Notes: generated from the letters alone by a model not told the origin. A stretch of 33,319 nucleotides of DNA from Actinobacteria bacterium HGW-Actinobacteria-1 (GCA_002841355.1 PHFB01000017.1:1-33319); one strand, 5' to 3'; shown: positions 1,285 through 24,600, numbered from the stretch's first letter. Program-made: numbers and translations.

Positions 1285-1872
1285 CTAGGCGAGCGTGCTC
1301 CGTGCGGCGAACGCGAATGCCAGCTCAGGCTTGGTCGAGTACGCACGCTCGTACGCTTCCTGCTCGCGGCGGGCCAGCCAGAAGAGCGCAGAGGCGGTGA
1401 GCATCGGGCCGATGAGCGCGAAGGTCATGATGCCCCAGACGCCAGCCTCGAACTGGTAGATGATGCCCCATGCGATGACCGCGAGGGAGGCGAGCAGCAG
1501 AAGCGCGGCGGTGAAGCGCTCGTAGTACCAGCCGAGCACGAGCGTCACGAGGACTGCTGCGAGCGGCACGACGGCACCCATGACGGCTTCGCCGGTGCCG
1601 GAGGTCCCGAACGAGTACATGCCCGCGAACGTCGCGATCGACCAGAAGACGCCGCCCACGATGACGAACGCACGGGCCACACCGCGCTCGACCGTGAGGC
1701 GCATGACGGTGTCCTTCTCGGTAACCTTCTCGGCCACCTTCGGCGCTGCGTTCTTGCGTGACTGGATGATGTCGTATGCCATGACCCCGAAGGCCAGCGG
1801 CACCCCGACAAGGAACGCCACTACGGCAACGATCTCAAAGACGATGATGAATGTCGCTACTGCGAGCCCCAT
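1285..1872 (-). CDS. Hypothetical polytopic membrane protein
   Basis: The 195-residue protein has about five predicted hydrophobic segments: roughly residues 5-32, 68-86, 93-114, 118-137 and 146-166. A charged cytoplasmic-type loop (residues 38-62) lies between the first and second, and a charged tail of about 30 residues follows. The ATG is supported by AGGAGGT eight bases upstream. I do not recognise the family; no catalytic or ligand motif is visible. It lies downstream of, and in the same direction as, the histidine kinase gene with a 153-base gap, so it could be read from that operon or from its own promoter. It ends facing the SRPBCC gene across a shared terminator hairpin. Confidence 0.75.
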   Translation of the reverse strand: MGLAVATFIIVFEIVAVVAFLVGVPLAFGVMAYDIIQSRKNAAPKVAEKVTEKDTVMRLTVERGVARAFVIVGGVFWSIATFAGMYSFGTSGTGEAVMGAVVPLAAVLVTLVLGWYYERFTAALLLLASLAVIAWGIIYQFEAGVWGIMTFALIGPMLTASALFWLARREQEAYERAYSTKPELAFAFAARSTLA

Positions 1873-2025: not shown

Positions 2026-3789
2026 CTACGCGCGCGCGAGCGTGAACGAGAACGTCGTGCCGCCCCCGACAGCCGAGCGGACATCGATCGTTGCGCCGTG
2101 CGCCTCCACGATCTCCTTGGCAATGGCGAGGCCCAGCCCCGTGCCCGTGCCACCGGCTCGCGAGGTGTCCGCGCGGTAGAAGCGCTCGAAGACGCGGTCG
2201 ATCTGGTCCAGTTCGATGCCGGGGCCCTCATCGGTGACCGAGAGGCGAACCCTGTCGCCATCGCCATGCGCCTCGAGGTGAATGCGGGTGCCCTCCGGCG
2301 AATGCTTGAGCGCGTTATCGGTGAAGCTCAACAGCACCTGCACCACACGGTCACGGTCGGCCATCACCTTGAGCTCGCCATCGGGGATCGCCATCTCGAG
2401 CGACACGCCGGCCTGCTCGGCAAGCGTGCGCATGACTCCGGTGACGTCCGCGAAGAGGTCCTCCACGTACTCGGGCGCTGGCGAGAGCTGCAGGCTACCC
2501 GCCTCGAGCCTCGCGAGCGTGAGGAGGTCGGCAACCAGGCGTCCGAGCCGCTCCACCTCGGCCTGCATCGTCTGCAGGAACTCGTCGCGTACTTCCGGAC
2601 GGTCCTTCGCGCCGTCCAGCAGGAGCTCCAGCATGCCCTTGAGCGCCGCGATCGGCGTGCGCATCTCGTGGCTTGCATCGGCCACGAAGCGCCGCTGCGC
2701 GTCTTCCAGGCGCTGACGTTCGGTGACATCCGAGAGAAGCAGCACCGCGCCGTCAACGGCTCCAGCGGTGTCGAGCAGCGGCGTGCAGTGCAGCCGGACG
2801 GCCCGGGCATCGAGCGTCACGGTGCGCGTCGCGCTGGCACCGCCGAGACCCTCGCGAACGACTTCCAGCACCCCGGCATCGGCGATCGTGTCGGCGGCGG
2901 GCGTCCCGGTCGCCTCGGCGGGCTCTACCGAGAGCAGGCGGGCCGCTTCGGGGTTGATCACGCGTAGCAGTCCCGCCGAGTCGATCGCCACGACGCCTTC
3001 CGCCATCGACTCCACCACGGCCGCGATCTCGCGGCGGCTCTCCTCGATCGCCGAGAACGCTTCGCCAAGCGTGGCGGCCATGGAGTTGTACGACTCGGCA
3101 AGGTCCTGGATCTCCGAGGGCACGAGGTTCGTCGGGAGACGCTGCTCGAAGTCGCCGGCCGCGATGCCGGCTGCAGCGTCCGACATCGCCTGGATGCGTC
3201 TGCCGATGAGTTCCGAGAAGCCGAAGCCGAGCAGCCCCGCCACCGCGAGCGAGATCCAGAACGTGACCCAGAGCCGGTCGCGGACCGACTGGAGGATCGT
3301 CACTGACGGGTCGGCCGAGCTGGCAGTGACGACGACGCCCTGCAGGCTCCCGTCTCGGCCATGGAGCGGTTGGGCAGCCACGATCCAACCGTTGCGGCGA
3401 AGGTCGCTCGTCACGTACGACGCGTCCTCGGCCAGGCCCTTGAGCCGTGCCGACTCCAGCACCGCATCGAGCGGGGCGGCGTCGTGCGCCGACTGCATGA
3501 GGGCACCGTCCTTGTCGTACACCCAAATGCCGCCGCCGTAGATGGTGCGGTACTCGGCGACCACGTCACGCAACGCGCGCGTGCCGTCAACGCCAAGCGG
3601 GAACTCGGGCTTGAGCCGCTCGGCAAGCGCGTACGCGTTGCGCAACTCGCTCGTCTCGGTCGTTTGCGTGAGCGTGGCTTTCACGCCTGCGGACAGCGAC
3701 CCAGAGAGGATCAGGATGGCGACGACGATGACGGCGATGAAGAGCTCGGTCTGCCAGAGGCGGATCGAGCCCCGGCGACGTGCAGGCAT
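2026..3789 (-). CDS. Sensor histidine kinase, PhoR/WalK-like (HAMP-PAS-HisKA-HATPase)
   Basis: A 587-residue membrane sensor kinase. Visible order: TM1 (about 15-36), an extracytoplasmic sensor region of about 135 residues (37-172) with a short PAS/Cache-like WVYDKDGALM strand-turn, TM2 (about 173-196), HAMP (197-250), a PAS domain (about 253-355), and HisKA with phospho-acceptor His374 in DASHEMRTP. The HATPase_c domain follows, with the N box around Asn492 (DNALKHSPEG), the G1 box DEGPGI and the G2 box GTGTGLGL. The gene starts three bases after the stop of the response-regulator gene, so the two form an operon. PhoR and WalK share this architecture; the stimulus is not readable from sequence. 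The divergent cytochrome operon begins just beyond its partner, making envelope or respiratory control possible. Confidence 0.93.
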   Translation of the reverse strand: MPARRRGSIRLWQTELFIAVIVVAILILSGSLSAGVKATLTQTTETSELRNAYALAERLKPEFPLGVDGTRALRDVVAEYRTIYGGGIWVYDKDGALMQSAHDAAPLDAVLESARLKGLAEDASYVTSDLRRNGWIVAAQPLHGRDGSLQGVVVTASSADPSVTILQSVRDRLWVTFWISLAVAGLLGFGFSELIGRRIQAMSDAAAGIAAGDFEQRLPTNLVPSEIQDLAESYNSMAATLGEAFSAIEESRREIAAVVESMAEGVVAIDSAGLLRVINPEAARLLSVEPAEATGTPAADTIADAGVLEVVREGLGGASATRTVTLDARAVRLHCTPLLDTAGAVDGAVLLLSDVTERQRLEDAQRRFVADASHEMRTPIAALKGMLELLLDGAKDRPEVRDEFLQTMQAEVERLGRLVADLLTLARLEAGSLQLSPAPEYVEDLFADVTGVMRTLAEQAGVSLEMAIPDGELKVMADRDRVVQVLLSFTDNALKHSPEGTRIHLEAHGDGDRVRLSVTDEGPGIELDQIDRVFERFYRADTSRAGGTGTGLGLAIAKEIVEAHGATIDVRSAVGGGTTFSFTLARA

Positions 3790-3792
3790 CTC

Positions 3793-4467
3793 CTACTGCT
3801 CCCTGAGCCGGTAGCCGTAGCCGCGCACGGTGAGGACGTAGATGGGGTTCTTGTGGTCCGCCTCGATCTTCTCGCGGATGTTGTGGATGTGAACGTCGAC
3901 GGCACGCTCTTCGCCAACCGGCGACTCGTCCCACAGCGCCGCCAGGATCGCCTGGCGCGAGAACGCCTGGCCGGGATGACGCGCGAGGTGCAGCAGGATG
4001 CTGTACTCGGAGGTGGTGAGGTGGATCGGCTGACCGGCGAGCGTCACCTGGCGCGACAACGCGTCGATCTCAAGCTCGCCCACGCGGATCTTCTCGGCAG
4101 GCGCGCCCTCGACGCGGCGGAGGATCGCTTTCACGCGGCTGACCAGCTCGCGCGGGGAGAATGGCTTGGTGACGTAGTCGTCGGCTCCGAACTCCAGGCC
4201 GAGGATTCGGTCGATCTCATCACCGCGCGCCGAAAGCATGATGATGGGTACATCTGACTTGGAGCGAAGGTCCTTGGCGATGTCGAGCCCGGACTTGCCG
4301 GGAAGCATGACGTCAAGGATGACCAGGTCAGGCTTCACCTGGTCGAACATGAACTCCGCGCCGTAGCCGTCCCGCGCAAGGTGGACCTCGTAGCCGGCCT
4401 CGGCAAGCGCGTAATCGACGATCTTGAGAATCGACTCTTCGTCGTCCACGACCAGGATCTTCTTCAC
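3793..4467 (-). CDS. OmpR/PhoB-family response regulator
   Basis: A 224-residue two-domain regulator. The receiver domain shows the acidic pair at Asp9/Asp10, phospho-acceptor Asp52 (VILDVMLPG), switch Ser79 and Lys101 (KPFSPRELV). The C-terminal half is a winged-helix DNA-binding domain with the LTTSEYSILLHLARHPG and VDVHIHNIREKI segments typical of OmpR/PhoB proteins. The start is GTG, preceded by AGGAGG. It is first in an operon with the histidine kinase. A Pho-box-like direct repeat lies about 67 bases upstream, which would fit autoregulation. PhoP/PhoB is the closest type by architecture, but the regulon cannot be fixed from sequence alone. Confidence 0.95.
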   Translation of the reverse strand: MKKILVVDDEESILKIVDYALAEAGYEVHLARDGYGAEFMFDQVKPDLVILDVMLPGKSGLDIAKDLRSKSDVPIIMLSARGDEIDRILGLEFGADDYVTKPFSPRELVSRVKAILRRVEGAPAEKIRVGELEIDALSRQVTLAGQPIHLTTSEYSILLHLARHPGQAFSRQAILAALWDESPVGEERAVDVHIHNIREKIEADHKNPIYVLTVRGYGYRLREQ

Positions 4468-4663: not shown

Positions 4664-5365
4664 ATGCATGGATCCAGCATGGCAGGTTCCCGGAAACGAA
4701 TGCGGTTGCGAGCCGGGAGCTCGGTCTTCCTGGCGGCGCTGGCGGTGTTCATGCTCGCCGGCATCTTCTTTGCCCCGAGCGCGTTCGCGGGGCAGTCTTC
4801 GACAGGTGAGCTTGCGTTCTACCCCTGCACGAAGTGTCACCCGGTAACGCTTGATGCCGGTGGCAACCCGGTGCCGCCACTACCCAACGGTTTCAAGAAG
4901 CACACGATCACGCTTGAGGTACACGACACGCTCGGCAAGGACGAGAAGGCGTGCCTGCAGTGCCACGACGATCCGTCGCGCAACCCCGGTATGCTCATCG
5001 CGCCGGACGGCTCGCTCATCGACATCACCGGCGACGTCTCCCGTGTGTGCCAACGCTGCCATTTCGAGAAGTACCGCGAGTGGCAGGAGGGCGTTCACGG
5101 CAAGAACCTCCCCAAGTGCACCGCTGCCGGTTGTCACGACCCGCACACGCCTTCCTGGATCTACGTCGCGGCGCTGCCGCCGTTCCTCGGCACCGGTCTG
5201 GAAGTGCATGCAGTGGCCGAGCACGAGCCGTTCAAGCCGCTCGCCGGTCCGCCGGTCTATCCTCCCGTCTACACGCCACTCTCGCTCGTCATCGTGGCTT
5301 CGATCGGTGCTGTAATCGGCGCAGGCACGCTCGCCCTGCTGATCATGGGAAGGTCCAAGCGATGA
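4664..5365 (+). CDS. Tail-anchored tetraheme-type cytochrome c, first gene of the respiratory cluster
   Basis: With the ATG at 4664 the protein has 233 residues; ATG 4679 and 4700 and GTG 4595 are also in frame, and no start has a strong ribosome site. There is a Sec-type signal (about residues 18-42, ending near SAFAG). Heme sites follow at CTKCH (55-59), CLQCH (97-101), CQRCH (129-133) and a longer-spaced CTAAGCH (152-158, CX4CH, known from tetraheme cytochromes c3). A C-terminal hydrophobic helix (about 202-228) and a basic tail anchor it with the heme domain outside. Its TGA overlaps the ATG of the ferredoxin gene (ATGA), indicating translational coupling. In related NrfD-type complexes such a cytochrome exchanges electrons with the iron-sulfur subunit; that role here is inferred. 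Confidence 0.88.
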   Translation: MHGSSMAGSRKRMRLRAGSSVFLAALAVFMLAGIFFAPSAFAGQSSTGELAFYPCTKCHPVTLDAGGNPVPPLPNGFKKHTITLEVHDTLGKDEKACLQCHDDPSRNPGMLIAPDGSLIDITGDVSRVCQRCHFEKYREWQEGVHGKNLPKCTAAGCHDPHTPSWIYVAALPPFLGTGLEVHAVAEHEPFKPLAGPPVYPPVYTPLSLVIVASIGAVIGAGTLALLIMGRSKR

Positions 5366-6261
5366 CCAAGAAGAACGACCCCATTCCCGCCGACGCCACA
5401 GCGCCCGAGGGCCTCACGCTCTCACGCCGGAGCTTCATCGAAGGGCTTGGCGCCACCGCGGGCATCCTCGCTGCGGGCTCGGTCCCGGCATTCCTCTCGG
5501 CGACCGCAGGCTCTGCGACCGCTTCCGAGGCGGCCGTTGAGGGAGACTCGCTCGCGCCGATCATCGAGGAAGACCAGGCGGTCAATTACCCCGGCAAGCC
5601 GGTGAAGTACGCAGATCCCGCGGGTGACCAGAAGTGGGCGATGGTCATCGACGTGAAGGCCTGTATCGGCTGCCGTCGCTGCGTCTACGCATGCGTGAAG
5701 GAGAACAACATCGGCCGGAACTCCGGCTTCACCTACATCCAGGTGCTTGAGATGGAGCCCGGGAAGATCGACCTCGAGAAGGCCGACCCGCACTACACCG
5801 AAGGCGGCGACCCGGATAAGTGGTACCTGCCGGTGCAGTGCATGCAGTGTGCGAAGCCTACGTGCGTGTACGGCTGCCCGGTCATCGCCACCTGGAAAGA
5901 GCCGGACGGCATCGTCGTCATCGACTACGACAAGTGCATCGCGTGCCGCAACTGCCTGGTCACCTGCCCGTACGACGCCCGCCACTTCAACTGGGTCGAG
6001 CCCGAGGTGCCCGCTGCTGAGCGCAACCCGCTCGTTCCGGTCGAGGAGAAGGCCGGCGTCGTGGAGAAGTGCACGTTCTGCATCCAGCGGACGCGCAACG
6101 GCCAGACGACAGCGTGCGTGGAGGCCTGCCCGGTCGGGGCGCGCAAGTTCGGCGACCTGAACGATCCAGAGAGCGAAGTCTCCATCCTGCTCAAGACCCG
6201 CCGTGTCTGGCGTTTGAAGGAAGAGACCGGCAACGAACCGATGATCTGGTATGTGGGGTGA
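5362..6261 (+). CDS. Tat-exported four-cluster ferredoxin subunit (DsrO/HmcB/PsrB-like)
   Basis: This 299-residue protein opens with a twin-arginine signal (SRRSFIEG at about 21-28, followed by a long Ala/Gly-rich hydrophobic stretch). Four cysteine clusters then form the arrangement of DMSO-reductase-type electron-transfer subunits: CIGCRRCVYAC, CMQCAKPTCVYGC, CIACRNCLVTC and CTFCIQRTRNGQTTACVEAC. That gives 16 cysteines, enough for four [4Fe-4S] clusters. A Tat signal places it on the outer face of the membrane, where such subunits dock on NrfD proteins. It overlaps the upstream cytochrome gene by four bases and is followed after six bases by the NrfD gene. It probably passes electrons between the NrfD quinone site and the cytochromes. 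Direction of flow is not deducible. Confidence 0.93.
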   Translation: MTKKNDPIPADATAPEGLTLSRRSFIEGLGATAGILAAGSVPAFLSATAGSATASEAAVEGDSLAPIIEEDQAVNYPGKPVKYADPAGDQKWAMVIDVKACIGCRRCVYACVKENNIGRNSGFTYIQVLEMEPGKIDLEKADPHYTEGGDPDKWYLPVQCMQCAKPTCVYGCPVIATWKEPDGIVVIDYDKCIACRNCLVTCPYDARHFNWVEPEVPAAERNPLVPVEEKAGVVEKCTFCIQRTRNGQTTACVEACPVGARKFGDLNDPESEVSILLKTRRVWRLKEETGNEPMIWYVG

Positions 6262-6267
6262 TGCGAC

Positions 6268-7521
6268 ATGGCTAAGAAGCTGATCACCACCACCGCACCC
6301 GGCGTCTACCGCTTCATCGGCGTTGATTTCAACATCGGCGCGCTCAAGTCGGCCGGCAAGCGCTACTGGATGTTCGTAGCGCTCCTCGGCATCATCATCA
6401 CCCTCGGCATCGTTGCGTGGGGGACGGCGCTCGCCAATGGCGGCTCCGTGATGGCGATGCGCGACAACTACCCGTGGGGACTGTGGTTCACCAACTACAT
6501 GTACTACGTCGGTCTCTCGGCGGGTGGCCTCATCGTCTACGCGAGCGTCCACCTCTTCGGTGCCGAGCAGTTCAAGCCGCTGTCGCGTCTCGCCGTACTG
6601 CAGGCAGGCGTGCTCGTGATGCTTGCGCTTCTCGGCATCATCACCGACATGGAACGCCCGTGGCGAGCGGTGTACATGTTGCTCACGCCCAATGGCACGT
6701 CGCCGTTCGTGTACACGGGCAGCGCGGCGAACATCTACATGATCATCTGCTTCGTGGACCTATGGGTGCTCATCACAGGGTTCGGCGGGAAGAAGCTCGC
6801 CCAGCGCATGACGCTCATTGCGCTCCCGTTCGCGATCTACCTGCACACCACTACAGCGTTCGTGCTCTCGCTCAACAAGTCGCGTGAGCTGTGGAACTCG
6901 GCCGTCATGGTGCCGATCTTCCTGACCTCGGCCACCGCCTCCGGTATCGCGCTCCTGCTGATCTGCGCGTACATCATGCAGAGCATCGGGGTGTTCAAGT
7001 TCGCATCGAGCATGTTCCGGAGCCTGGCAACCCTGCTGGCGACGGTCATCATCATCGACCTGTTCCTGCTGCTGGTAGAGATCCTGAGCGTGTTCTGGCC
7101 GACCTCGGCTAAGCCGGGGCATGTGGTGCGCCTTGAGCACTTCTTCACCGGCGAGTACGCCTGGGCGTTCATCCCGGTGCTGATCCTGGGAATCGGCGCG
7201 TTCGTGCTCCTTGCCGGACGCAAGACGCGGCATCTGCCCGCCATCCAGATCACGGCCTCGGCGATGTACGTCGTCGCCATCTTCTTCAAGCGGTACTCGC
7301 TCATGGCGATGGGCTTCTCCACGAACACGCTGGGTCAATACTCGTCGCCGTACTTCCCGAGCCTCGTCGAAGTGCTCATCGCGCTTGGCCTGCTCTCGGT
7401 CGGTCTGATGATCATGACGCTCAGTGCCAAGGTACTTCCGCTGCAGGTGCCCGAGGACGAGCACGACGAGGAACCCGCTGCGCTTGGCGCCGGCGCGGAA
7501 CCCGTCGTCGAGGCAGGGTGA
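6268..7521 (+). CDS. NrfD/PsrC-like quinol-interacting membrane subunit
   Basis: The 417-residue protein has about nine or ten hydrophobic segments and the NrfD-family feel of DsrP, HmcC and QrcD: an N-terminal segment before the first helix, PWGLWFTNYMYYVGLSAGG in the second helix region (about 71-89), and ITDMERPWRA (about 125-134), a conserved loop in this family. NrfD-type subunits carry no cofactor and oxidise or reduce menaquinone next to an external ferredoxin subunit. The ATG at 6268 has a GGGGTGATG ribosome site and lies six bases after the ferredoxin stop. No molybdopterin or other catalytic subunit is encoded beside it, so the cytochromes downstream are the likely redox partners. 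Confidence 0.92.
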   Translation: MAKKLITTTAPGVYRFIGVDFNIGALKSAGKRYWMFVALLGIIITLGIVAWGTALANGGSVMAMRDNYPWGLWFTNYMYYVGLSAGGLIVYASVHLFGAEQFKPLSRLAVLQAGVLVMLALLGIITDMERPWRAVYMLLTPNGTSPFVYTGSAANIYMIICFVDLWVLITGFGGKKLAQRMTLIALPFAIYLHTTTAFVLSLNKSRELWNSAVMVPIFLTSATASGIALLLICAYIMQSIGVFKFASSMFRSLATLLATVIIIDLFLLLVEILSVFWPTSAKPGHVVRLEHFFTGEYAWAFIPVLILGIGAFVLLAGRKTRHLPAIQITASAMYVVAIFFKRYSLMAMGFSTNTLGQYSSPYFPSLVEVLIALGLLSVGLMIMTLSAKVLPLQVPEDEHDEEPAALGAGAEPVVEAG

Positions 7522-7528
7522 GTCCTCA

Positions 7529-8539
7529 GTGAGCGCACGCGAGGCGTGGTCACGGTCGCGACTATCGCGCATCGCCATGATCGCCGGCGTTCTGGTGGTG
7601 CTCGTGAGCGCCGTCGCGGTGATCGTGCCGCTCGTGCAGACATCAACGCCCGAGTTCTTCTCACGCTACCACCTGCTCAATCGGCGGTACGTGAACCTGG
7701 GCAACTCGGCACACGAGGGCATCGGCTGTCGCGCGTGCCATGAGACCGATGCGCTCAGAAACGGCGTCGCGCTCATCGGCGATTACTACGCGAGCTTCGT
7801 GAAGACCGGCCCCACGCCGCAGTACTTCACGTTCTCGCCGCCGCGCAACGAAGCGTGCCTGAACTGCCACCGCGACGACTGGAGCTCGGATGCCACGCGC
7901 ACGGCGCGTATCCCGCATCCCGCTCACGAGCGCGTCTCCACCGAGACGCGCACCTGCGTCGAGTGCCACAAGTGGACGGCGCACTTCGAGACGTACATGG
8001 ACAAGCACAAGCAGATGCCGTTCTCGGGCGTTTGCGTCGCGTATGGCTGCCATGTGGGCACCAAGACGACCGAGCAGTGCTTCGACTGCCACCACGTGTT
8101 GCACGAGAGCGCCGACCAGTGGAAGACAGCGCATGTGGCCGTCGTCCAGAAGGTGGGTCAGAACGGGTGCCTCGAGTCGTGCCACACCGTCGCGCAGTGC
8201 CAGCAGTGCCACACGACGGGCACGGTACCCAAGTTCACCGGGCTCACGATCGAGATCGGCATGAAGTCGATCGAGGCGTTGCATGTGAAGCCAGACTGGA
8301 CGAAGACGTATCACGGCGCCGAGGCGCTCAAGTCGCGCGAGCGGTGTCTGTTGTGCCATCAGTCGGAGGGCGAGTGCCAGGAGTGTCACCTGCAGCGACC
8401 TGAGTTCCACGGGTCAACAGACACATGGATCGGCAGACACAAGAACTTCACGAAGCGCGTTGACGATCCGCGATGCCTTGAGTGTCACGAAAAAGCCTCC
8501 TGCACGGACTGTCACGACCAGTTCAAGGAGATGAAGTAG
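7529..8539 (+). CDS. Membrane-anchored undecaheme-type cytochrome c
   Basis: The chosen start is GTG 7529, seven bases after the NrfD stop; upstream in-frame codons lie inside the NrfD gene. The 336-residue protein has one N-terminal hydrophobic helix (about 14-37) without a clear cleavage site, so it is probably anchored with its heme domain outside. I count nine CXXCH sites (CRACH, CLNCH, CVECH, CFDCH, CQQCH, CLLCH, CQECH, CLECH, CTDCH). There is also one CX4CH (CVAYGCH) and one CX3CH (CLESCH), giving up to 11 hemes. The last CX4CH shares the C-x-A-x-G-C-H pattern with the first cytochrome of the cluster. Many extra histidines could be sixth ligands. The gene directly abuts the next cytochrome gene. 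Role inferred: electron wire in the periplasm or cell wall. Confidence 0.9.
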   Translation: MSAREAWSRSRLSRIAMIAGVLVVLVSAVAVIVPLVQTSTPEFFSRYHLLNRRYVNLGNSAHEGIGCRACHETDALRNGVALIGDYYASFVKTGPTPQYFTFSPPRNEACLNCHRDDWSSDATRTARIPHPAHERVSTETRTCVECHKWTAHFETYMDKHKQMPFSGVCVAYGCHVGTKTTEQCFDCHHVLHESADQWKTAHVAVVQKVGQNGCLESCHTVAQCQQCHTTGTVPKFTGLTIEIGMKSIEALHVKPDWTKTYHGAEALKSRERCLLCHQSEGECQECHLQRPEFHGSTDTWIGRHKNFTKRVDDPRCLECHEKASCTDCHDQFKEMK

Positions 8540-9310
8540 GTGCGTCGTCGCCCGCTCATGTGGGCGCTCGCCGGCCTCGCGATCGTGGTGATCGTAGCGG
8601 TCGGATTGCCCGTGTTCTCCGTGCTGCAGCCCGACTACTACCGCCGCTATCCGGCGCTCGGGCCGAGGATGGATCACTGGACGACGTCGACACACTCCCG
8701 GATCGCGTGCGGAGCGTGTCATATCGAGCCGGGCGTGCAGGGCTTCGTGTCATTCTCGGTTCGCGCGATCCCGGCGTTCTACTCCCAGCTGATATCGGGT
8801 CCTGATACGACCAACCTGCTCCAGTCGCCCTCCCGGGCCGCATGCCAGAAGTGCCACACCACATACCGGGCAGTCGCGCCAAGCGGCGACCTGCTCATTC
8901 CACACAAGGCGCATGTCGAGGTCCTCAAGATGGAGTGCACCGCATGCCACAAAGACCTCGTGCACTCGCTCAACAAGGACGGCTTCAACCGGCCGACGAT
9001 GCAGACTTGCCTCACGTGCCATGACGGCGACAAGGCGACCGCCGATTGCGTGAAGTGCCATACCCGCAAGGAGACGCCGGCCACCCACAAGCAGGCGAAT
9101 TGGCTCCAGGTGCACGGCACGGCAGCCGCGTCACAGGATTGCGCGCAATGCCACGACTGGACGCCCGGCTACTGCGCCGAGTGCCACGAGAAGCGGCCCG
9201 CGTCGCATATCGGCAACTGGAAGAAGGCCCATGCCGCGCCAGCCAGAGAACGCGGTGACGGCTGCCTGGTGTGTCATGGCGGCGAGGAGTTCTGCAAGAC
9301 ATGCCACTAA
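8540..9310 (+). CDS. Membrane-anchored nonaheme cytochrome c, paralogue 1
   Basis: It starts with GTG immediately after the stop of the undecaheme gene. The 256 residues comprise an N-terminal anchor helix (about 8-28) and nine CXXCH sites: CGACH, CQKCH, CTACH, CLTCH, CVKCH, CAQCH, CAECH, CLVCH and CKTCH. The last heme-ligand histidine is the final residue before the stop. The heme spacing and shared segments (SGDLLIPHKAHVEVLKM, CLTCHDGDKA) show it is a close paralogue of the next gene. The first part (PDYYRRYPALGPRMDHWTTSTHSRIACGACH) resembles NapC/NirT-like quinol-cytochrome anchors in overall layout. The next gene begins inside its last codons. It is assigned to the electron-transfer chain of this operon by context. 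Confidence 0.9.
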   Translation: MRRRPLMWALAGLAIVVIVAVGLPVFSVLQPDYYRRYPALGPRMDHWTTSTHSRIACGACHIEPGVQGFVSFSVRAIPAFYSQLISGPDTTNLLQSPSRAACQKCHTTYRAVAPSGDLLIPHKAHVEVLKMECTACHKDLVHSLNKDGFNRPTMQTCLTCHDGDKATADCVKCHTRKETPATHKQANWLQVHGTAAASQDCAQCHDWTPGYCAECHEKRPASHIGNWKKAHAAPARERGDGCLVCHGGEEFCKTCH

Positions 9311-10149
9311 GAGCTGACAAGAAGCCGCTTCTGGATCCGCGCCGCCGGCGCACGCTGCTGCGCGCGGGCCTTGTCGTACTGGCCATCCTCGTTCTGCTGG
9401 TCCTGCCTGGCTATCTCGCCAGCCGTCCGGGGTTCTTCTCGAAGTACCCAGTCCTGGCCGAGAAGTACGGCCCCTGGTCGAAGTCCACACATGCCGAGGC
9501 GGGCTGCGAGACGTGCCACGTCCCGCCCACGTTCGCGGCGCGCACGGCGTATCGCGTGCGGATGATCGGGACGTCGTACGCCTCCCTCGTTTCGCGCTCA
9601 AAAGCGCCGGACGTCTTCAAGACGCCCACGAACGACGCCTGCCTTGTCTGCCATAGCGACCTTCGGTCGGTGTCGCCCGCCGGCGATTTGCAGATTCCGC
9701 ATCGGGCGCACGTGACCGTGCTCAAGATGAAGTGCGTCGAGTGCCATGACTTCCTAGTGCACGAGGTGAGTCCTGAAGGGAAGCACACGCCGCCGATGGT
9801 GGGGTGCCTGACCTGCCATGACGGCGACAAGGCCAAGAATGCCTGTACCGCCTGCCACACCGAGAAGGCGGCACCCGAGACGCACAGCAAGGCCGACTGG
9901 CTGGTCCTGCACGGCGGCCATCGTGACGACGCGGAGTGTGCGACGTGCCACAAGTGGAAGGCGGACTGGTGCGCCGATTGTCACGCACAGCGCCCGCCCT
10001 CGCACGTCACAGACTGGCGCGCGACACACGGCGCCGCCATCGCGAAGCATCGCAGCTGCGAAGCGTGTCACGAGGCGCCATTCTGCGTTCGCTGCCACGG
10101 CGAGGTGCCTTCGCTCAACTTCAATGCGGCGCTCAAGGTCGTGAAGTAG
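9301..10149 (+). CDS. Membrane-anchored nonaheme cytochrome c, paralogue 2
   Basis: ATG 9301 lies within the final CXXCH codons of the preceding gene, a 10-base overlap, with GAGGAG 11 bases upstream. The product has 282 residues, an N-terminal basic segment, an anchor helix (about 20-41) and nine CXXCH sites: CETCH, CLVCH, CVECH, CLTCH, CTACH, CATCH, CADCH, CEACH and CVRCH. Conserved blocks such as AGDLQIPHRAHVTVLKMKC and CLTCHDGDKA match the upstream paralogue at equivalent places, so the pair arose by tandem duplication. It differs by a longer N terminus and a 17-residue C-terminal extension past the last heme. Probably a second anchored carrier in the same chain. Confidence 0.9.
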   Translation: MPLRADKKPLLDPRRRRTLLRAGLVVLAILVLLVLPGYLASRPGFFSKYPVLAEKYGPWSKSTHAEAGCETCHVPPTFAARTAYRVRMIGTSYASLVSRSKAPDVFKTPTNDACLVCHSDLRSVSPAGDLQIPHRAHVTVLKMKCVECHDFLVHEVSPEGKHTPPMVGCLTCHDGDKAKNACTACHTEKAAPETHSKADWLVLHGGHRDDAECATCHKWKADWCADCHAQRPPSHVTDWRATHGAAIAKHRSCEACHEAPFCVRCHGEVPSLNFNAALKVVK

Positions 10150-11115
10150 ATGGTCGCTGTTGGTCGCAAACGCCTGCTCATCGCCGCTGCGATCGTGCTC
10201 GGCGTTCTGCTGCTGGCCGTCGCGCTCGATCTTGGCACGGCATCGCCGGGTGCGTGCACCGCATGTCACGAGATGACGTCGCGAGCGGGGTCGTGGGAGC
10301 GCTCGGCACACGTCACCGTTGCCTGCGTGAAGTGCCACGAAGCGCCGCACGCCTGGTATGCCCTTCCCGCTCGTCTCGTCGACCGGGGGAAGCTCTTCGC
10401 GCGGGATATCGGCGCGCACATCTCGGGCGACTACCCCGCGCAGGTCGAGACCCGCTCGGCAGATGTGGCGCCGGTGGCCGACGCCGTCTGCCTGCAGTGC
10501 CACAGTCCGAACCGGACGGCCACCTCGGGATACCGGATCCTCATCGATCACGCCGAGCACGCTAAGCGCAACGGCTCATGCGTGTCGTGCCATGTGCGAA
10601 CTGCACATCCCGAGGAAACGCGCGGAACCGCGCTCACCCTCATGGCGCAGTGCTTCACGTGCCATGGAACCGCCGAGAAGCCAGACGCCTCCGCGAAATG
10701 CGCCGTCTGCCACCCGTCAGGGTACGAGCTGGTGCCCGCCTCGCATGCGGGAGCGGAATGGAAGGATGGACGCCACGGGGACATCGCTCTGGCGGACGTG
10801 AAGCTCTGCAGCATGTGCCATGAGAAGCGGCTGTGCGATGACTGTCACGGCGTCGAGATGCCGCATCCCACCGGCTGGACCGAGGGTCCCACAAGCCATG
10901 CCGCGGTCGCCAAGGTCGACACCAAGGTCTGCTCGCGCTGCCACAGCGGCAAGCCCGACATGTGCACGATGTGCCACCACGCCGAGTACGATCCCAAGCA
11001 GGGCGCGTGGCTCGATCAGCATGGGAAACAGGTGGACAAGGGCGGCGCCGCGCACTGCATCACCTGCCACGGACCGCTCTACTGCGTGAATTGCCACATC
11101 CGCGCCGAGAAGTAG
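10150..11115 (+). CDS. Membrane-anchored dodecaheme cytochrome c, NapC-like N terminus
   Basis: The ATG directly follows the preceding stop. The 321-residue product has an anchor helix (about 8-27) followed by a NapC/NirT-like beginning: ACTACHEM, then SWERSAHVTVACVKCHEAP with the typical first two hemes close to the membrane. Ten more CXXCH sites follow (CLQCH, CVSCH, CFTCH, CAVCH, CSMCH, CDDCH, CSRCH, CTMCH, CITCH, CVNCH), so 12 in all, with no catalytic CXXCK-type site. NapC-type modules take electrons from menaquinol and pass them to soluble partners, so this protein could be an independent quinol entry point or the terminal wire. It is the last gene of the cluster; no clear terminator follows before tRNA-Val. 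Confidence 0.9.
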   Translation: MVAVGRKRLLIAAAIVLGVLLLAVALDLGTASPGACTACHEMTSRAGSWERSAHVTVACVKCHEAPHAWYALPARLVDRGKLFARDIGAHISGDYPAQVETRSADVAPVADAVCLQCHSPNRTATSGYRILIDHAEHAKRNGSCVSCHVRTAHPEETRGTALTLMAQCFTCHGTAEKPDASAKCAVCHPSGYELVPASHAGAEWKDGRHGDIALADVKLCSMCHEKRLCDDCHGVEMPHPTGWTEGPTSHAAVAKVDTKVCSRCHSGKPDMCTMCHHAEYDPKQGAWLDQHGKQVDKGGAAHCITCHGPLYCVNCHIRAEK

Positions 11116-12622: not shown

Positions 12623-14590
12623 ATGTCGTTCTCGTTCAGATCGAAACTGCGGCCGCTTGTAGCGGTCGTGGTGCTCGGAATGCTGTTCTCGGTTGTCTGT
12701 GCGCCGTTCGCTCAGGCGTGCACTCCACCTGAGGCACCGTTCAACATCGAGCTCAGCGCGACGTTCGCTGAAGGTACCGGATCGCTCGACATCGCGATCG
12801 GTCCGGGGTACCTCTACGCTGCCGATGCCGCAGGACTCTCGATCTACGACGTTGCGGATCCCGGCATGCCAGCTCTTACTGGATCGATCGGCCTACCCTC
12901 TCCCGGAATCGCCGTCGGCTTCGAGCAGGCGACTGGCCTGGTGTACGTACTTGGGGAGAGCCACGTTGTGTACTGCGTCGATGTCAGCGATCCCTCGGCA
13001 CCGGTCGTAGCCGGCTCCTTCGACCCCGCCGAGCCGACCCATGGTCTTGCTGTAGCTGGATCCAGGGTCTTCCTGGCCGCGAACAGCGGGTTGCGTATCG
13101 TCGACTTCGCGACGCCGGCATCGCCCGTGGAGCTGAATGGTTTCGATACCTCGGCGCCGGCGTACGCGGTGGAGGTTGTGGGCGATACGGCGTACGTCGC
13201 AACGCACTACACCGATCTCGCGCCGACGACGTACGTTCCGACGTGCTACGACACCACCGTCTTCGCCCTCGACGTCAGCGGAGTCACGCCAACGCAGTCT
13301 GATTCGCACGTCGTTCCGTACGGCGTGCCCAGCCTTGCGTCATCTGGTGACGGCTCGCTGCTCTTCGTCGCGTGCGATACGGGAGACGGCTCGTACCTGA
13401 AGGTGTTCGATATCTCCGACCCGTCGTACCTGTGCTTCGTCACAGCGCTTGACGCTGGCGAGGGGGGCGGTCTCGACGTTGCCTCCCTGGGGACGAGTGC
13501 CTTCGTCTCAGGCAGCCTCGCCACGCGGATGTTCGATGCGAGCCAGGTCGACCTCACGTACATGTCCGGATACAACCCGGTAGGAACCGTGAAGCTTGCT
13601 GCAATCGATGGCTGGCTCTTCGCCACCACCGCCGAGGGTGCGCTTCTGAGCTTCCAGCTCACCGATACATCAAGCCGATCGTTTGGTGCGAACCGCTACG
13701 ATACGGCGGTTGATGTCTGCCGCAGTTTCGCGAGCGCCCCATACGTGGTCGTGACGACCGGGATGAACTACCCGGACGCACTTGCCGGCGCGACGCTGGC
13801 GTATGCACTCGACGCCCCGATACTGCTCGCGGGCGGCAATGGTCTCTCGGCAGCAGCGCTTGCGGAGGTCGAGCGCCTTGGCGCCGATCATGCGATTCTG
13901 CTTGGTGGCAAGAACGTCGTTCCCGACGCGGTGAAATCGCAGCTTGCTGGTGTCGGGGTCCCGCTTGCGAACATCGAGCGCATAGGTGGCGTCGACCGGT
14001 ACGACACAGCTCGGCTCGTGGCCGTTCGGGTGCGCGCCGTGCTCGGCGGCGGGCCGGTGAGCACCGCATTCATCGCAACCGGCGCGAACTTCCCGGATGC
14101 GCTCGCGGCAGCAGGTGTGGCCGCCAAGCTCGGCGCGCCGGTCCTGCTCGTGAAGCCGACATCGGTGCCGGCAGCGACCGCTTCGGCGCTCACAGCGCTT
14201 GGTGTGACCGATACGATTGTGCTGGGATCCTCGGCCGCCGTGTCCGACCCGGTGATGGCATCGCTACCTTCGCCGCAGCGCATCGGTGGCGATGACCGCT
14301 ACGAGACCGCGCGGATGGTCGCCGACTGGTCCATCGACGGCTCCGGCGCCGGTTTCGTGCCGCAGGAGGTCGTCGTGGCAACGGGGCAGACGTTCCCCGA
14401 CGCGTTGGCGTCTGGCGTCTACGCGGCTATGAGCGACGCCCCCACGGTGCTGGTGAACGGGGACGTTCCCGATCCCACCAATGGCTTCGTCACCACACGG
14501 AAGGCGCAGATCGAGCGGTTCACGGTTATCGGCAGTACGGCGGCGGTCTCCACAGATGTGGAGCGGGTGCTTGTCGGGCTGCTGCGCTAG
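12623..14590 (+). CDS. Secreted beta-propeller protein with three CWB2 cell-wall-binding repeats
   Basis: ATG 12623 is chosen for GGGAGG ten bases upstream and a good signal peptide (about residues 1-32, ending FAQA). Residues about 45-345 contain LVIVD-like propeller repeats, short strands with patterns such as YLYAADAAGLSIYDVADP and VVYCVDVSDPSAPVVAGSF. Three CWB2 (cell wall binding repeat 2) domains follow, starting near residues 353, 452 and 552. Each has an RxGGxDRYxTA-like opening (FGANRYDTAVDV, IGGVDRYDTARLV, IGGDDRYETARMV), an ATGxNFPDALA core and a VLGxxxAVS segment. In clostridial relatives CWB2 triplets bind anionic cell-wall polymer. The same propeller-plus-CWB2 combination recurs in the giant protein at 18674. 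The propeller's ligand is unknown. Confidence 0.92.
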   Translation: MSFSFRSKLRPLVAVVVLGMLFSVVCAPFAQACTPPEAPFNIELSATFAEGTGSLDIAIGPGYLYAADAAGLSIYDVADPGMPALTGSIGLPSPGIAVGFEQATGLVYVLGESHVVYCVDVSDPSAPVVAGSFDPAEPTHGLAVAGSRVFLAANSGLRIVDFATPASPVELNGFDTSAPAYAVEVVGDTAYVATHYTDLAPTTYVPTCYDTTVFALDVSGVTPTQSDSHVVPYGVPSLASSGDGSLLFVACDTGDGSYLKVFDISDPSYLCFVTALDAGEGGGLDVASLGTSAFVSGSLATRMFDASQVDLTYMSGYNPVGTVKLAAIDGWLFATTAEGALLSFQLTDTSSRSFGANRYDTAVDVCRSFASAPYVVVTTGMNYPDALAGATLAYALDAPILLAGGNGLSAAALAEVERLGADHAILLGGKNVVPDAVKSQLAGVGVPLANIERIGGVDRYDTARLVAVRVRAVLGGGPVSTAFIATGANFPDALAAAGVAAKLGAPVLLVKPTSVPAATASALTALGVTDTIVLGSSAAVSDPVMASLPSPQRIGGDDRYETARMVADWSIDGSGAGFVPQEVVVATGQTFPDALASGVYAAMSDAPTVLVNGDVPDPTNGFVTTRKAQIERFTVIGSTAAVSTDVERVLVGLLR

Positions 14591-18673: not shown

Positions 18674-21600
18674 CTACTCCACGAGCGTCTGTATCTGGTT
18701 GTAGACCGCGGTCGAGAGCGCCGTTGGCCCGCCGAAGACCTGCACCGTGCTGATGTCATCGACGTGCGATTCGATCGCGCTCCGGCAGGGCGTCGAGAGC
18801 GTCGTGGTCGCGGTCAGCAGTAGCACGCCGCCGTGCGCGCCGCACGCAGCTCCGCCGCCGAGCGCATCCGGGAAGTTCAGCCCGGTCGCAATGCCGAGGA
18901 ACTCCCACGTCGCCCACCCCTGGTTGACGCCGTAGGCCGCGACGGCCGCAGCGGTCGCGTAGCGGTCGGCACCGAAGACGCGAACCGGCGTGTTGACGCC
19001 GGAAACCGCGTCGAGCGCGCTCTTCACGCCTTCGCTTACGGCCTTGTCGCTGCCCGCGATCACCACGTCGGTGATGCCGAGCGAGACGATGGCGCTCTGC
19101 GTAGCCGCCGGAAGCCGCGTCGTCTCGACGAGGAGCACCGGCGAGGCCGTCGCATACGCGAGCGGCGAGGACGCGAGCGCATCGGCGAAGTTGTCGCCGC
19201 GCGCGATGAACGCGCGCTTGCTGAAGCTCGGGCCTTCGTGTGCCGCAATCTGCTGTGCGACGCGAGCGGCGGTCTCGTAGCGATTCGAGCCTTCCAGGCG
19301 CACCGGCGTGTTCATGCCGGGAATCGCGTCGATCGCGTTCTTCACCGCGTCCGTTACGGCCGCCGTACTGCCGATGATGAAGCAGTCGGTAGCGCCGCAG
19401 CGGATGATCTCATCTCGGATGACGGATGGCAGCGTGTTGGGATCGGTGAGCAGCAGCGGGCAACCGTACGATCCGGCGAGCCCGGCTGCGCCGAGTGCGT
19501 CCGGGAACTTCGCGCCGGTGGCGACCACCACGTAGTCGCACGTGCCCGCGGGGAAGTTCGCGGCACTCACCAGAGCGGCAGTCTGATAGCGGTTGTCGCC
19601 GGCGATGCGGTCCATCTCGGTGGTGAGGTCGAGCACGATCGTGTCGCTCGTCTCAAGCATGTTGCCGGCCTGGTCGGTGAACCGGGCCCAGACGGTGGCG
19701 GTACCTTCGACGGCGGGTAGCGAGAGCGCCTTGGTGCTCGCGTACGCCTCGGATGTCGTCCAGGTGCTCTTCCCGTTCACCGAGAACCGCATGGTGAGCG
19801 GCCCGGCGTCGGTCACCGCGTTCGTGACGGTCACGTTCGCAGAGGTGCTGGACGCGTCGCCGCCGTTGATGGAGATCGACCCGGAAGGTGGCGTCGTGTC
19901 GAGGATGATCGAATCGTTCAGGATCGTGGTGTGTCCGACGGCGTCGGTGTACTCCACGTGCACCGTCTTGTCGCCGTCGCTCCCGGGGAGCGTGACCGCA
20001 TACGATGTCGCGTAGGCGACGCTTGCGCCCCACGTGTCGCCCCCGTCGGTGCTGACGCGCATCGTGATGGCCGAGAGGTCGGTCACCGACGAGTTGGCGG
20101 TCACGCCGACCTGGTTTGTCGCGGATGCACCGCTGTTGATGCTCATCGTTCCGCTTGGGGCCGAAGTGTCTCGGCGCAGGGCGAACGTCGAGGTCTCGCT
20201 CCACAAACCGAGCGCGTTGCGTGCCCGAATGTGGAAGTAGGAGACAGTGTCTCCAGCCAGGGCGTACGAGGCGGTCGTCGTCGTGCCGTCTGACAGGTAA
20301 TCGGGCTCGCCGTCGGGGTCGTAGTCGAGACCCCACGAGTAGCCGTCAATCGCGCTTACGGAGTCCGTCGCCACCCACGAGAGAATCGCTGGTGATATCG
20401 AGTACCAGGTGGTCTGGCTCGGGTGTGTGCTGCTGGAGATCGTCGGTGCGCTCGGAGCGGACGCGTCGTACACGAACGTGGCCGACGCCCGGTTCGCGTG
20501 GTTCACGTTGCCCGCCGAGTCGCGTAGCCATACGTACAGGGTGTGCGTGCCCTCGGAGCTGGCGGTGATGCTTGAGATGCTCGACGGCGGTCCGGCTACA
20601 AGCGTGCCATCCGTCGCGGAGGTCGGGGCCGCGTCGAGCTTGTAGTAGCAGGCATCGAGTGGCGCGTACGCCTGTGCAGGGTTCGTCCAGTTGGCGCTGA
20701 AGCTGTTCGTGCTGCTCGAGGTCGGCGTGACGGACAGACCCGTTGGCGCAGTGGGAGCGTTCGAGTCGACCCGGTAGAGCATGTGCGTGGTGTCGCCCCA
20801 GTTCCCCGCAGTGTCGACCGGCCGTACGTGCAGGTAGTGTGCGCCATCACCAACACCTGTTCGCGTTACCGATGTTGCCGTGGTCGTCACCGCCGAGGGC
20901 AGTACGGTGCTTGCGGTGTCATCCCAGCCGTGTGCGTACCCGACAATGCCCGAGAGGTCCGCGTAGTCGCTCCAGGAAGCCGTGACGGTGGTCGCCGGAT
21001 ACCACGACGCGGGGTTGCTATGCGTCGTGCTCGTCGGCGGCGTCACGCGAGGGCTGGTCGTGTCGATGCGCACGATGCGCGCACCGGATGTGCCGAGGTG
21101 CGCAAGCGTGTCTCCGGCTGCAAACTCCACGACGTTCTCGGTGGCGGAGTCGCCGCGGAAATCCAGGCGGGTGGCGGTCAGCGTTTGCGACGTATCAGTG
21201 CCAGCCGGGTAGCTCCGCTGGGCGCTGAACCAGTCGCTCCAGCTTCCACCGCCGTCCGAGGACCACCGGTATGCGGGCTCCGTCATCTGCCAGACCCTGA
21301 GGCCGCTGTCGTTGTTGAACGTCACGATGTTCCTGCCGAGCATACCCACAGCGCTCGTGAGGCCACCTGCGCCTCCGTCAAGAACGTGGATAAGCGCCGG
21401 CGCCGATGGCGTACCGACGTCGATCACGGCTACGTTGCTGCCGTCGACTGTCGCGCACAGGCGGTCGCCACTCACTCTGAGCGACGTCGGGATTCCGCCA
21501 AAGAGGCCGTCGATGCGGTCGTGCGTCACTGCCACCCACTCGTCGGGAACGCGAGCGACGTTGTAGACCATGAGCATGCCGTCCCCGTCGCCCAGGTAGA

Positions 21601-24600
21601 GCAGATCGCCCTGGAAGGCCATCAGCGTATTCGCGCTGATCAGCGGACCTTCGGCCGCTTTCGGCTCCGTTGGTTCACGGAGGTCGACGCTCCAGAGGGA
21701 ACCCTCGGAACATGCCACATACAGCAGCCCATTGTGGAATGCCATGTCGCAGATGTTCGGCAGCTCGAGTCTGCCGAGGACGTTCATTCGCGCCTCGGGA
21801 CTGGTCGCGTCGAGTACGAACAGATCGGTTGCCGTTGCGGCGAAAGCGAGCGCACCTCTTGCAGTCGAACCAGCGGCCACGAACCGTACGTCGCCGAGGC
21901 TCCCGGTTGTCGCACCGTAACGCGGTGCGAGCGGATCCTGAATGTCGGCGGTACCGACTCCTGCAGTGCCGAGAGCGGCAAACAGCCACTGTCCATCCGG
22001 GTTGACGGCGATGTCGACGATTGAGGAGTCGAAGTCGACGATTGCAGTCTCGGCAGGTGCGGAGGGCGATGCGACATCTATGGCGTACAACGACGTATCC
22101 CAGCCGCCATAGATGGTTGTGCCGTACTCGGCGCAGAGGGTCGACTTGAGATGCTCCGGCAGGGTGCCTGCCACGATCGGCGCCACCCCGAGTCCGGACC
22201 TGGCATCACGGACATCGATGCTGACATCAGGCGTGAGGTCCGAGACCCACGCCGAAGGGGATGTGAGCCCGAAGGTTGGCGCGCTCAGATCGACGCCGCA
22301 CCATGCGTCGGCGCTTTCCGGCGCCGCTTCGACATTCCCGCTGGTATCCACGGCGCGGGTGTAGAACTCGTAGCGGCCCTCGTCGGGCGTGGAGACCGCA
22401 AACGTTCCGCTCGTAAGCGTTCCGACTACGGAGCGACTTTGATCTTGTGTCCACGACCCGAAGCCGCTGCCGGTGTCCACGCGCTTCCAGAGCTGGACCG
22501 ACGCGAGACCGACGTAGTCGGTGGCCACGAACGACACGTTTCGCGACAGGCTGCCGCTCCAGGGCACACCCGACACACTCGCGGTTGACGCAGGTGGGAC
22601 CACGTCCACGACGCGGATCCAGTCGACCTTCGACTCAGAATAGAGTGCGCTTGCCGGTCCGCCTGTCCATCCCGACACGCGCCACACGACGCTGATCTTC
22701 ACGTGCGATGGGTCTATCCCTGCGGGAACCGACACACGGTAGAGGCTCCAAGTGGCGCCATCGGCGCCGGTTCCCGTGCCGATCCGGGCGTCGGTCACAC
22801 CTGAGCTGCTTGCCTGGTACAGGTAGGTTGTCACGGCGGGAGCACTGCCGTCATCGAAGCGCAGCGCCGTTCCGCAGAGCCACCCGGGATTCACCGATCC
22901 CAGATACCCAGCCGAGCAGTCCTTGAGAGAGAGGTCGATGAAGCTCGTTCCGGTGAGGTTCACGAACGATCCCGTCGACAGGAGGTTCTCGGCGGTGTAG
23001 GTCTGCGATGTCGTGGTCTGGGTGAGCTGCATCTTGCCCCAGACCGACTGCGCGGCGTGGTAGCGGTCGGTCGTCACTATCTGGCACACCGTCGATGTCG
23101 TGAAGCCGGACCCCGTCGAGCTTGTGGTGGTGTTCGTGTTCGCCCAGAACGTGGGAATCCCACCGGCAGTGCCAAATTCGAAGTCGCCGTTGAGCGGCAG
23201 ATCGTAGACCGCGGCATTGATGCCGACGTTGTACACGCCGGAGGTAGCCGTGTTCCCGACAGTATCCGAGATACGGAACCGCACCTTGTTCAAGGTGATC
23301 GAGTTCTGCAGGAACGGTATCTTCGCCGCGCTCACTGTCTGCGTCGCCGAGGTGCCGTTCGTGCCGGTGCATGCTGCGGCTGACCAGGAACTCCACGAGC
23401 TGCCGCCGTCTTTGGAGTACTGGTATTGCGCCGACGCGACCTGGAGGCCTGCGCCTCCGTCAGTGATTCGCACCGTGCAGTCGGGCTCGAGTGTGTTCGT
23501 GACTGTCACCGAGGGGGAGAAGTCGGTCCACGGAGTAGGCGTCGCAGTATCCACGCCCACCACGTACTGGGGGCTCTCGCCCGTCACACCGCCCATGTCG
23601 GACACGCGGAACTGGATGCGATTTGCGCTCATGCTGGAGACGAAGGGGAGGCTCGCCTTGGAGACTGTCTGGGGCGCCGTCGTGCCATCGGAGCCCGTAC
23701 AGGACGCGGCCGCCCATGCACTCCAGCTTGTGCCACCGTTCGTGCTGTACCGGTATTGGGCGGTGGAGATATCGAGCCCGTTGTCCGCGTCGAAGACCTG
23801 CAGGCTGCAGGTGGGGCTTGTGGTGTTGGTCAGCAACGGCGCGAAACTCGACCAACCGCCCGGACCGGCATTGCCTTGCGAGGTCCATTTCACGCTTGAA
23901 CTCAGGTCCGGCCACGAGGAAGGATTCCCTTGTGTCGCCGTCGCTGGCCACAGGTACGTGGTTCCGCTCGGCACGGGGACGAACGCGATTGCCATGCCCA
24001 TCGTCTTCGCGGAGCCAGCGGCTATGCCCAGTTTCGCGAACGGGATCTGCCATTCACAGTGGTCGGCGGTGCCACCCTGGAGCGTGCTCATCCCGGTCCA
24101 GTTGGACTGTCCTACCCATGTCCACGTCGATCCGTTTCCGGCGTATTCATCGACGGTTCCCCGCAGCATGCCCGTGCCCACGAGAAACGCGCGGTCATCG
24201 GTTTGCGGCGCAGCGCCGCCGTTGTTGTCCTTGTCCACGAGCAGCCACAGGTAGCCATTCGGCGTGCTCGCGTGCACGACGCCGACGTACAGGTTGTGCC
24301 CGTCTTGATGCAGGTTGACCTGCGAGTCCGTCCCGATCCACGGGTCCCAGTACCATGACCGGTAGTACTCGGTCACCGATCCCGCCGGGATCACGCCGTC
24401 ACACGGCACGGCCACGTCGTACGGCGCGTCGGTCTGCATCAGGTGTGCGACCGTCCCAGGTGCGCCCGGTGTGCCGTTCCGCTCTTCGCCATAGCCGGCC
24501 AAACCTCCACTGACGTCCACGGTGCCTGCGATCGGCACCTCGCGATCCGCCGTGATAGTGACAGTTCCCCCGTCGCCGCCGTCGCCCCCGATGCTGAACG

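Follow-up and report, generated by a model that had tools for sequence, protein, structure and literature searches.

We analysed a 33319-base stretch of DNA (the window) from Actinobacteria bacterium HGW-Actinobacteria-1 (PHFB01000017.1), which is the whole of contig C27 of a 2.44-Mb host genome that is 98 % complete and that appears to belong to the order Anaerosomatales (lineage OPB41) or very near to it. At positions 4664-11115 the window carries seven genes (A to G, Table 1), all on the + strand, with 45 haem-binding motifs. Judged from its genes, this operon appears to be a known kind of menaquinol:cytochrome relay, enlarged by four NrfH-derived cytochromes. We consider it probable, if far from certain, that it acts as a menaquinol:cytochrome c oxidoreductase feeding its own bank of bis-histidine wire cytochromes, D-G.

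The motifs comprise three CXXCH and one CX4CH in A, nine CXXCH, one CX3CH and one CX4CH in D, and 9, 9 and 12 motifs in E, F and G respectively; 42 of the 45 are CXXCH, and D-G together hold 41 of the 45 haems. A six-frame scan found just two CXXCH in the rest of the window, and residue-shuffled versions of the cytochromes gave a mean of 0.01-0.14 CXXCH, against 3-12 observed per cytochrome. The density of haem motifs is far beyond chance. These counts agree with an initial annotation of this DNA, which had described a seven-gene cluster of about 45 haem sites with 11, 9, 9 and 12 of them in D-G. Its description of tight packing, with two overlaps and two abutting pairs, also holds: A and B overlap by 4 nucleotides and E and F by 10, D/E and F/G abut, and the gaps between B and C and between C and D measure 6 and 7 bases. 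Because the genes overlap, abut or sit at most 7 bases apart, all seven are likely carried on a single transcript, and a simple scan found no internal sigma-70-like promoter in the cluster.

A core of known kind with four added cytochromes

Gene C matches the Pfam NrfD family (E-value 2.2e-32, 113.4 bits, cut-off 25.8) and is the sole NrfD of the host genome. Hydropathy gives it 10 helices, within the 8-10 of the NrfD/PsrC family, and Arg342 in helix 8, at the position of an arginine common to the family (ActC Arg395), is invariant. Members of this family have an iron-sulfur partner with up to four clusters, and gene B (299 residues, Fer4 domains) has four cysteine clusters with 16 cysteines in total, the cluster cysteines being in register in 17 aligned sequences. 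Gene A has predicted helices at residues 15-44 and 200-230, and its haem ligands and four distal histidines are invariant in 19 aligned sequences.

The A-B-C core is a CbcSTU/DsrJOP-like module, already known in kind. Geobacter Cbc4 (cbcSTU) is described as a menaquinol:ferricytochrome c oxidoreductase, with a link to the transfer of electrons out of the cell (PMC11434368, PMC10989804). In composition and order, on which the likeness rests, both systems have a 4-haem cytochrome, a 4Fe-4S protein and an NrfD-type subunit in the S-T-U order and no catalytic subunit. While Cbc4 ends after three genes, here four more anchored cytochromes with 41 haems follow. The order of cytochrome, iron-sulfur protein and NrfD is also that of DsrMKJOP, and the top NCBIfam models for B and C are DsrO and DsrP. 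However, both scores are under the cut-offs (181.3 bits against 200 for DsrO and 141.6 against 350 for DsrP), A differs from the 3-haem DsrJ in its four haems and its C-terminal anchor, and neither DsrM nor DsrK is found in the flanking genes, so that membership of DsrMKJOP was rejected.

An Hmc or Qrc variant, which the initial annotation had raised as an alternative, does not account for the cluster either. For Qrc, the cluster has no QrcB Mo-like subunit and the scores are 150.5 bits for QrcC (cut-off 400) and 58.6 for QrcD (cut-off 570). For Hmc/Nhc, complexes with a 16-haem or a 9-haem cytochrome and judged here on the Hmc models, no 16-haem protein is present in the cluster and HmcB and HmcC score 92.1 (cut-off 420) and 66.3 (cut-off 550). 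Alternative complex III needs two NrfD-like subunits and an ActB fusion; here there is one NrfD, and B is a plain iron-sulfur protein of the length given above. The statement that complexes of this type normally have one cytochrome needs correction, as Nrf has both NrfA and NrfB (PMC8076601) and Geobacter Cbc6 (CbcMNOPQR) has at least two multihaem cytochromes, with 10 and 5 haems (PMC10989804). Cbc6 resembles the present cluster in being a quinone-linked membrane complex with several multihaem cytochromes and, going by its descriptions, differs in having fewer haems and another gene order.

The four added cytochromes are paralogues of each other (profile E-values of 5e-37 for D-E, 3e-83 for E-F and 1e-32 for D-G), and they descend from the NapC/NirT/NrfH lineage. 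NrfH was the sole useful match for D and G in a profile search of solved structures. G aligns to the NrfH structure 2j7a_C with an E-value of 1.4e-10, placing Met42 and Asp86 in register with NrfH Met49 and Asp89, which are known markers of the NrfH quinol haem. This haem-1 signature (CXXCHxM plus Asp), which likens G to the NrfH/NapC/CymA group, is kept among D-G in G only, where Met42 and Asp86 are near-invariant across relatives. In contrast to the four haems of NrfH, D-G have 9-12; G, with 12, scores 54.2 against the NCBIfam NrfH model, under its cut-off of 134.2. NrfH haem 1 has been lost from D, E and F, being absent from D and E in the profile alignments while F aligns with E throughout.

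Order-wide alignments of the cytochromes show every haem cysteine and proximal histidine to be invariant. Invariant histidines outside the motifs number 4 for 4 haems in A, 11 for 11 in D, 8 for 9 in E, 8 for 9 in F and 11 for 12 in G, leaving E, F and G with one haem each that lacks an invariant distal histidine; in G this is probably NrfH haem 1. No cysteine outside the haem motifs and no CXXCK was found in the cluster cytochromes. Because the count of invariant histidines is near complete and no cysteine lies outside the motifs, D-G have the pattern of bis-histidine electron carriers, not of enzymes. Multihaem reductases can pass for carriers, and the single haems of E, F and G without an invariant distal histidine might be viewed as signs of a nitrite, sulfite or tetrathionate reductase hidden among D-G. 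Given the absence of CXXCK and of further cysteines, the distal histidines on nearly all haems and the probable identity of the exception in G, we regard such an enzyme as very unlikely. The absence of a catalytic subunit from the cluster, as first annotated, extends to its surroundings, since Pfam searches of the neighbouring genes found none in either flank.

Conservation and a sister operon with an NrfA-like enzyme

We surveyed 69 genomes of the order together with other Actinomycetota genomes. The cluster NrfD is present in 30 of the 69, at 63-94 % identity and in at least 13 families; in other members of the same class, NrfD matches have about 30-36 % identity and belong to other NrfD types. 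The A-B-C-D-E-F order was found in about 30 genomes of the order plus a single genome, G577, from a different class of the phylum, and the order and its haem counts (4/0/0/11/9/9) are kept wherever the contigs are long enough. The place of G varies: it closes the operon in some genomes and in others lies next to the cluster, often on the opposite strand. In G577 the set is complete and an additional 6-haem protein separates F from G, and the cluster is absent from 35 other searched genomes of its class. Close named homologues all come from uncultured Actinobacteria or Coriobacteriia genomes.

Two genomes of the order (G073 and G141) carry a sister operon in which the A'-B-C genes are followed by an NrfA-like protein instead of D-G. 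This protein has 660-690 residues, the Pfam domain Cytochrom_C552 and the CXXCK motif of the nitrite reductase NrfA. The sister operon thus resembles NrfABCD, while the cluster in the window has no NrfA. In a tree of NrfD, the sequences of the order group together, G577 is their nearest neighbour and the NrfA-type operon branches one step further out; these joins are supported, the deeper ones being less sure owing to long branches. Since nitrite reduction consumes quinol electrons, the presence of a nitrite reductase in the sister operon favours quinol oxidation by the core.

The suggestion that the combination may be undescribed stands in part. The seven-gene arrangement was not found in the literature searched, which included little of the subscription journals, and the paper that described the first cultured Anaerosomatales in 2022 reports clusters of cytochromes and leaves NrfD unmentioned (PMC9686372). 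What cannot be called new is the core.

Direction of electron flow and possible acceptors

We propose that menaquinol would be bound by the NrfD subunit (C) on the outer side of the membrane and that electrons would pass from C through the four clusters of B and the 4-haem cytochrome A to D, E, F and G. With its NrfH quinol site kept, G may be a second entry point. From D-G electrons would reach exchangeable partners outside the membrane, namely secreted giant cytochromes and/or a cbb3 oxidase where present. The match of A-B-C to the composition and order of cbcSTU, the sister nitrite-reductase operon, the single NrfD, and the presence in the host of MqnA and cbb3 genes with no match to PF00033 (bc-type cytochrome b) all speak for this proposal. 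The menaquinol link was part of the initial annotation and is supported by the NrfD, iron-sulfur and cytochrome make-up of the core and by MqnA, which in one relative lies beside the cluster. We looked at co-occurrence in 67 genomes of the order, setting aside the two with the NrfA-type operon and ignoring phylogeny. Menaquinone genes are slightly commoner with the cluster (23/30) than without it (19/37, p = 0.04). For MenD, searched with TIGR00173, the test is informative for four genomes only, low scores being probably other thiamine pyrophosphate enzymes.

Several observations weigh against the proposal. In seven of the 30 genomes with the cluster, MqnA and MenD both fail to reach the cut-off, and four of those seven (G010, G034, G053 and G055) are 98-100 % complete. 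The two cultured Anaerosomatales have no detectable quinones (PMC9686372), and we saw no sign of the cluster in them. Assembly into one complex is our inference, the AlphaFold models of D and G made from order-wide alignments (predicted local distance difference test scores of 51-52) being too poor for use. Finally, sequence does not fix the direction of flow, and the similar Qrc and Nhc reduce quinone.

Electrons could also run the other way, from a periplasmic formate dehydrogenase or other donors through D-G and then A, B and C to menaquinone, as in a cytochrome:menaquinone reductase of the Qrc/Nhc kind. In Qrc, a cytochrome supplies the electrons for menaquinone reduction (PMC6303296), and the host encodes an exported selenocysteine formate dehydrogenase that has genes for a 20-haem and a 6-haem cytochrome next to it. 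Against this stand the lack of a QrcB-like subunit, QrcC and QrcD scores far under their cut-offs, the electron-consuming nitrite reductase of the sister operon and the quinol-oxidising NrfH signature in G, and we give reverse flow a small though appreciable chance. The formate dehydrogenase, exported by twin-arginine translocation (Tat), lies at L109:388-10741 (C23:131000-150900), with an in-frame TGA (ARIUH), an iron-sulfur subunit and the 6-haem cytochrome; the 20-haem cytochrome is nearby. A second PF00384 match with a TGA is at C23:2167.

On the acceptor side, the cbb3 oxidase genes of the host (contig C5, L101:10225-14413), the missing PF00033 match and the single NrfD would fit a complex III role, in which the cluster mainly feeds a cbb3-type cytochrome c oxidase for oxygen respiration or removal. 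COX1 is also commoner with the cluster (11/30) than without it (4/37), with a p value of 0.018 that ignores shared descent and rises to 0.048 in genomes at least 90 % complete. However, COX1 is missing from 19 of the 30 genomes with the cluster, which rules out oxygen as the acceptor in general, and we think this role unlikely. A broader version, to which we attach a modest chance at best, is a complex-III substitute for Gram-positives without a bc complex, with two menaquinol entries (NrfD and the NrfH-like 12-haem cytochrome) and a branched 45-haem relay to both the internal oxidase and extracellular acceptors. In the host cbb3 oxidase, CcoO carries several fused cytochrome c domains, the whole protein having 645 residues and 5 CXXCH.

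Extracellular electron transfer, as first suggested, is in keeping with a genome rich in other multihaem cytochromes, which has 586 matches to the CXXCH pattern compared to 177 for a control pattern and, in a partial inventory, secreted proteins with 10-23 haems; the cbb3 oxidase without a bc-type cytochrome b makes an internal acceptor possible as well. Among the secreted proteins are giant multihaem ones (L105-L108; 1084 to at least 2115 residues, 10-19 CXXCH), some with MtrC/MtrF-like domains, and these giant proteins are candidate electron carriers at the cell surface. Fe(III) reduction is known from a cultured relative (PMC9686372). With 45 haems in the cluster, D-G might themselves form a wire that crosses the cell wall and reaches the surface, as was originally proposed. 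Each of the four, however, has one N-terminal membrane anchor and none has a cell-wall domain, so all start at the membrane and end-to-end stacking across the thick wall is unlikely; the window's CWB2 proteins are without haem. Because all four are membrane-anchored, a complete surface wire is not supported and other carriers would be needed. We consider a wire made of D-G themselves improbable.

Genomic setting and meaning for the order

Table 1. Positions and assignments of the cluster genes, the adjoining regulators and the sister operon
Feature	Position	Strand	Assignment
gene A	4664..5365 (start alternatively 4700)	+	secreted 4-haem c-type cytochrome, C-terminal membrane helix; CbcS/DsrJ-like position
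gene B	5362..6261	+	Tat-exported ferredoxin, four [4Fe-4S] clusters
gene C	6268..7521	+	NrfD/PsrC-family quinone-binding membrane subunit (predicted), 10 helices
gene D	7529..8539	+	N-anchored 11-haem cytochrome, NapC/NirT-related, NrfH haem 1 lost
gene E	8540..9310	+	N-anchored 9-haem cytochrome, paralogue of F and D
gene F	9301..10149	+	N-anchored 9-haem cytochrome, paralogue of E
gene G	10150..11115	+	N-anchored 12-haem cytochrome, NrfH-type haem-1 quinol signature (CTACHEM, Asp86)
response regulator, OmpR-type, divergent	3793..4467	-	from Pfam; adjoins cluster in many relatives
PAS/HAMP sensor histidine kinase	2026..3789	-	from Pfam and relatives' neighbourhoods; partner of OmpR-type regulator
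sister operon	L061:9449-14087; L062:3624-8259	-	3-haem cytochrome, iron-sulfur protein, NrfD (40 %), NrfA-like CXXCK protein

The upstream flank consists of the histidine kinase and the response regulator, the latter being the probable regulator of the cluster, and the downstream flank of tRNA-Val and unrelated genes. A 195-residue membrane protein without a Pfam match (window 1285-1872, - strand) adjoins the kinase and regulator pair in most relatives. The two CWB2 cell-wall binding repeat proteins, neither with haem motifs, lie at 12623-14590 (+, 655 residues) and 18674-25315 (-, 2213 residues). Elsewhere in the genome, a truncated G-like cytochrome with 8 haems (L108:9310-9921, - strand) is found at the end of contig C28, with apparent ResB/ResC cytochrome c maturation genes in the same region.

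The NrfD/iron-sulfur/cytochrome core is re-used with either an NrfA-like enzyme or a bank of wire cytochromes at the same place, making the idea of modularity testable. Little is known about the exit of electrons from the quinone pool in Gram-positive multihaem respiration, and the operon provides a fixed candidate for this exit, conserved order-wide, in uncultured, anaerobic subsurface Actinobacteria (OPB41/Anaerosomatales).

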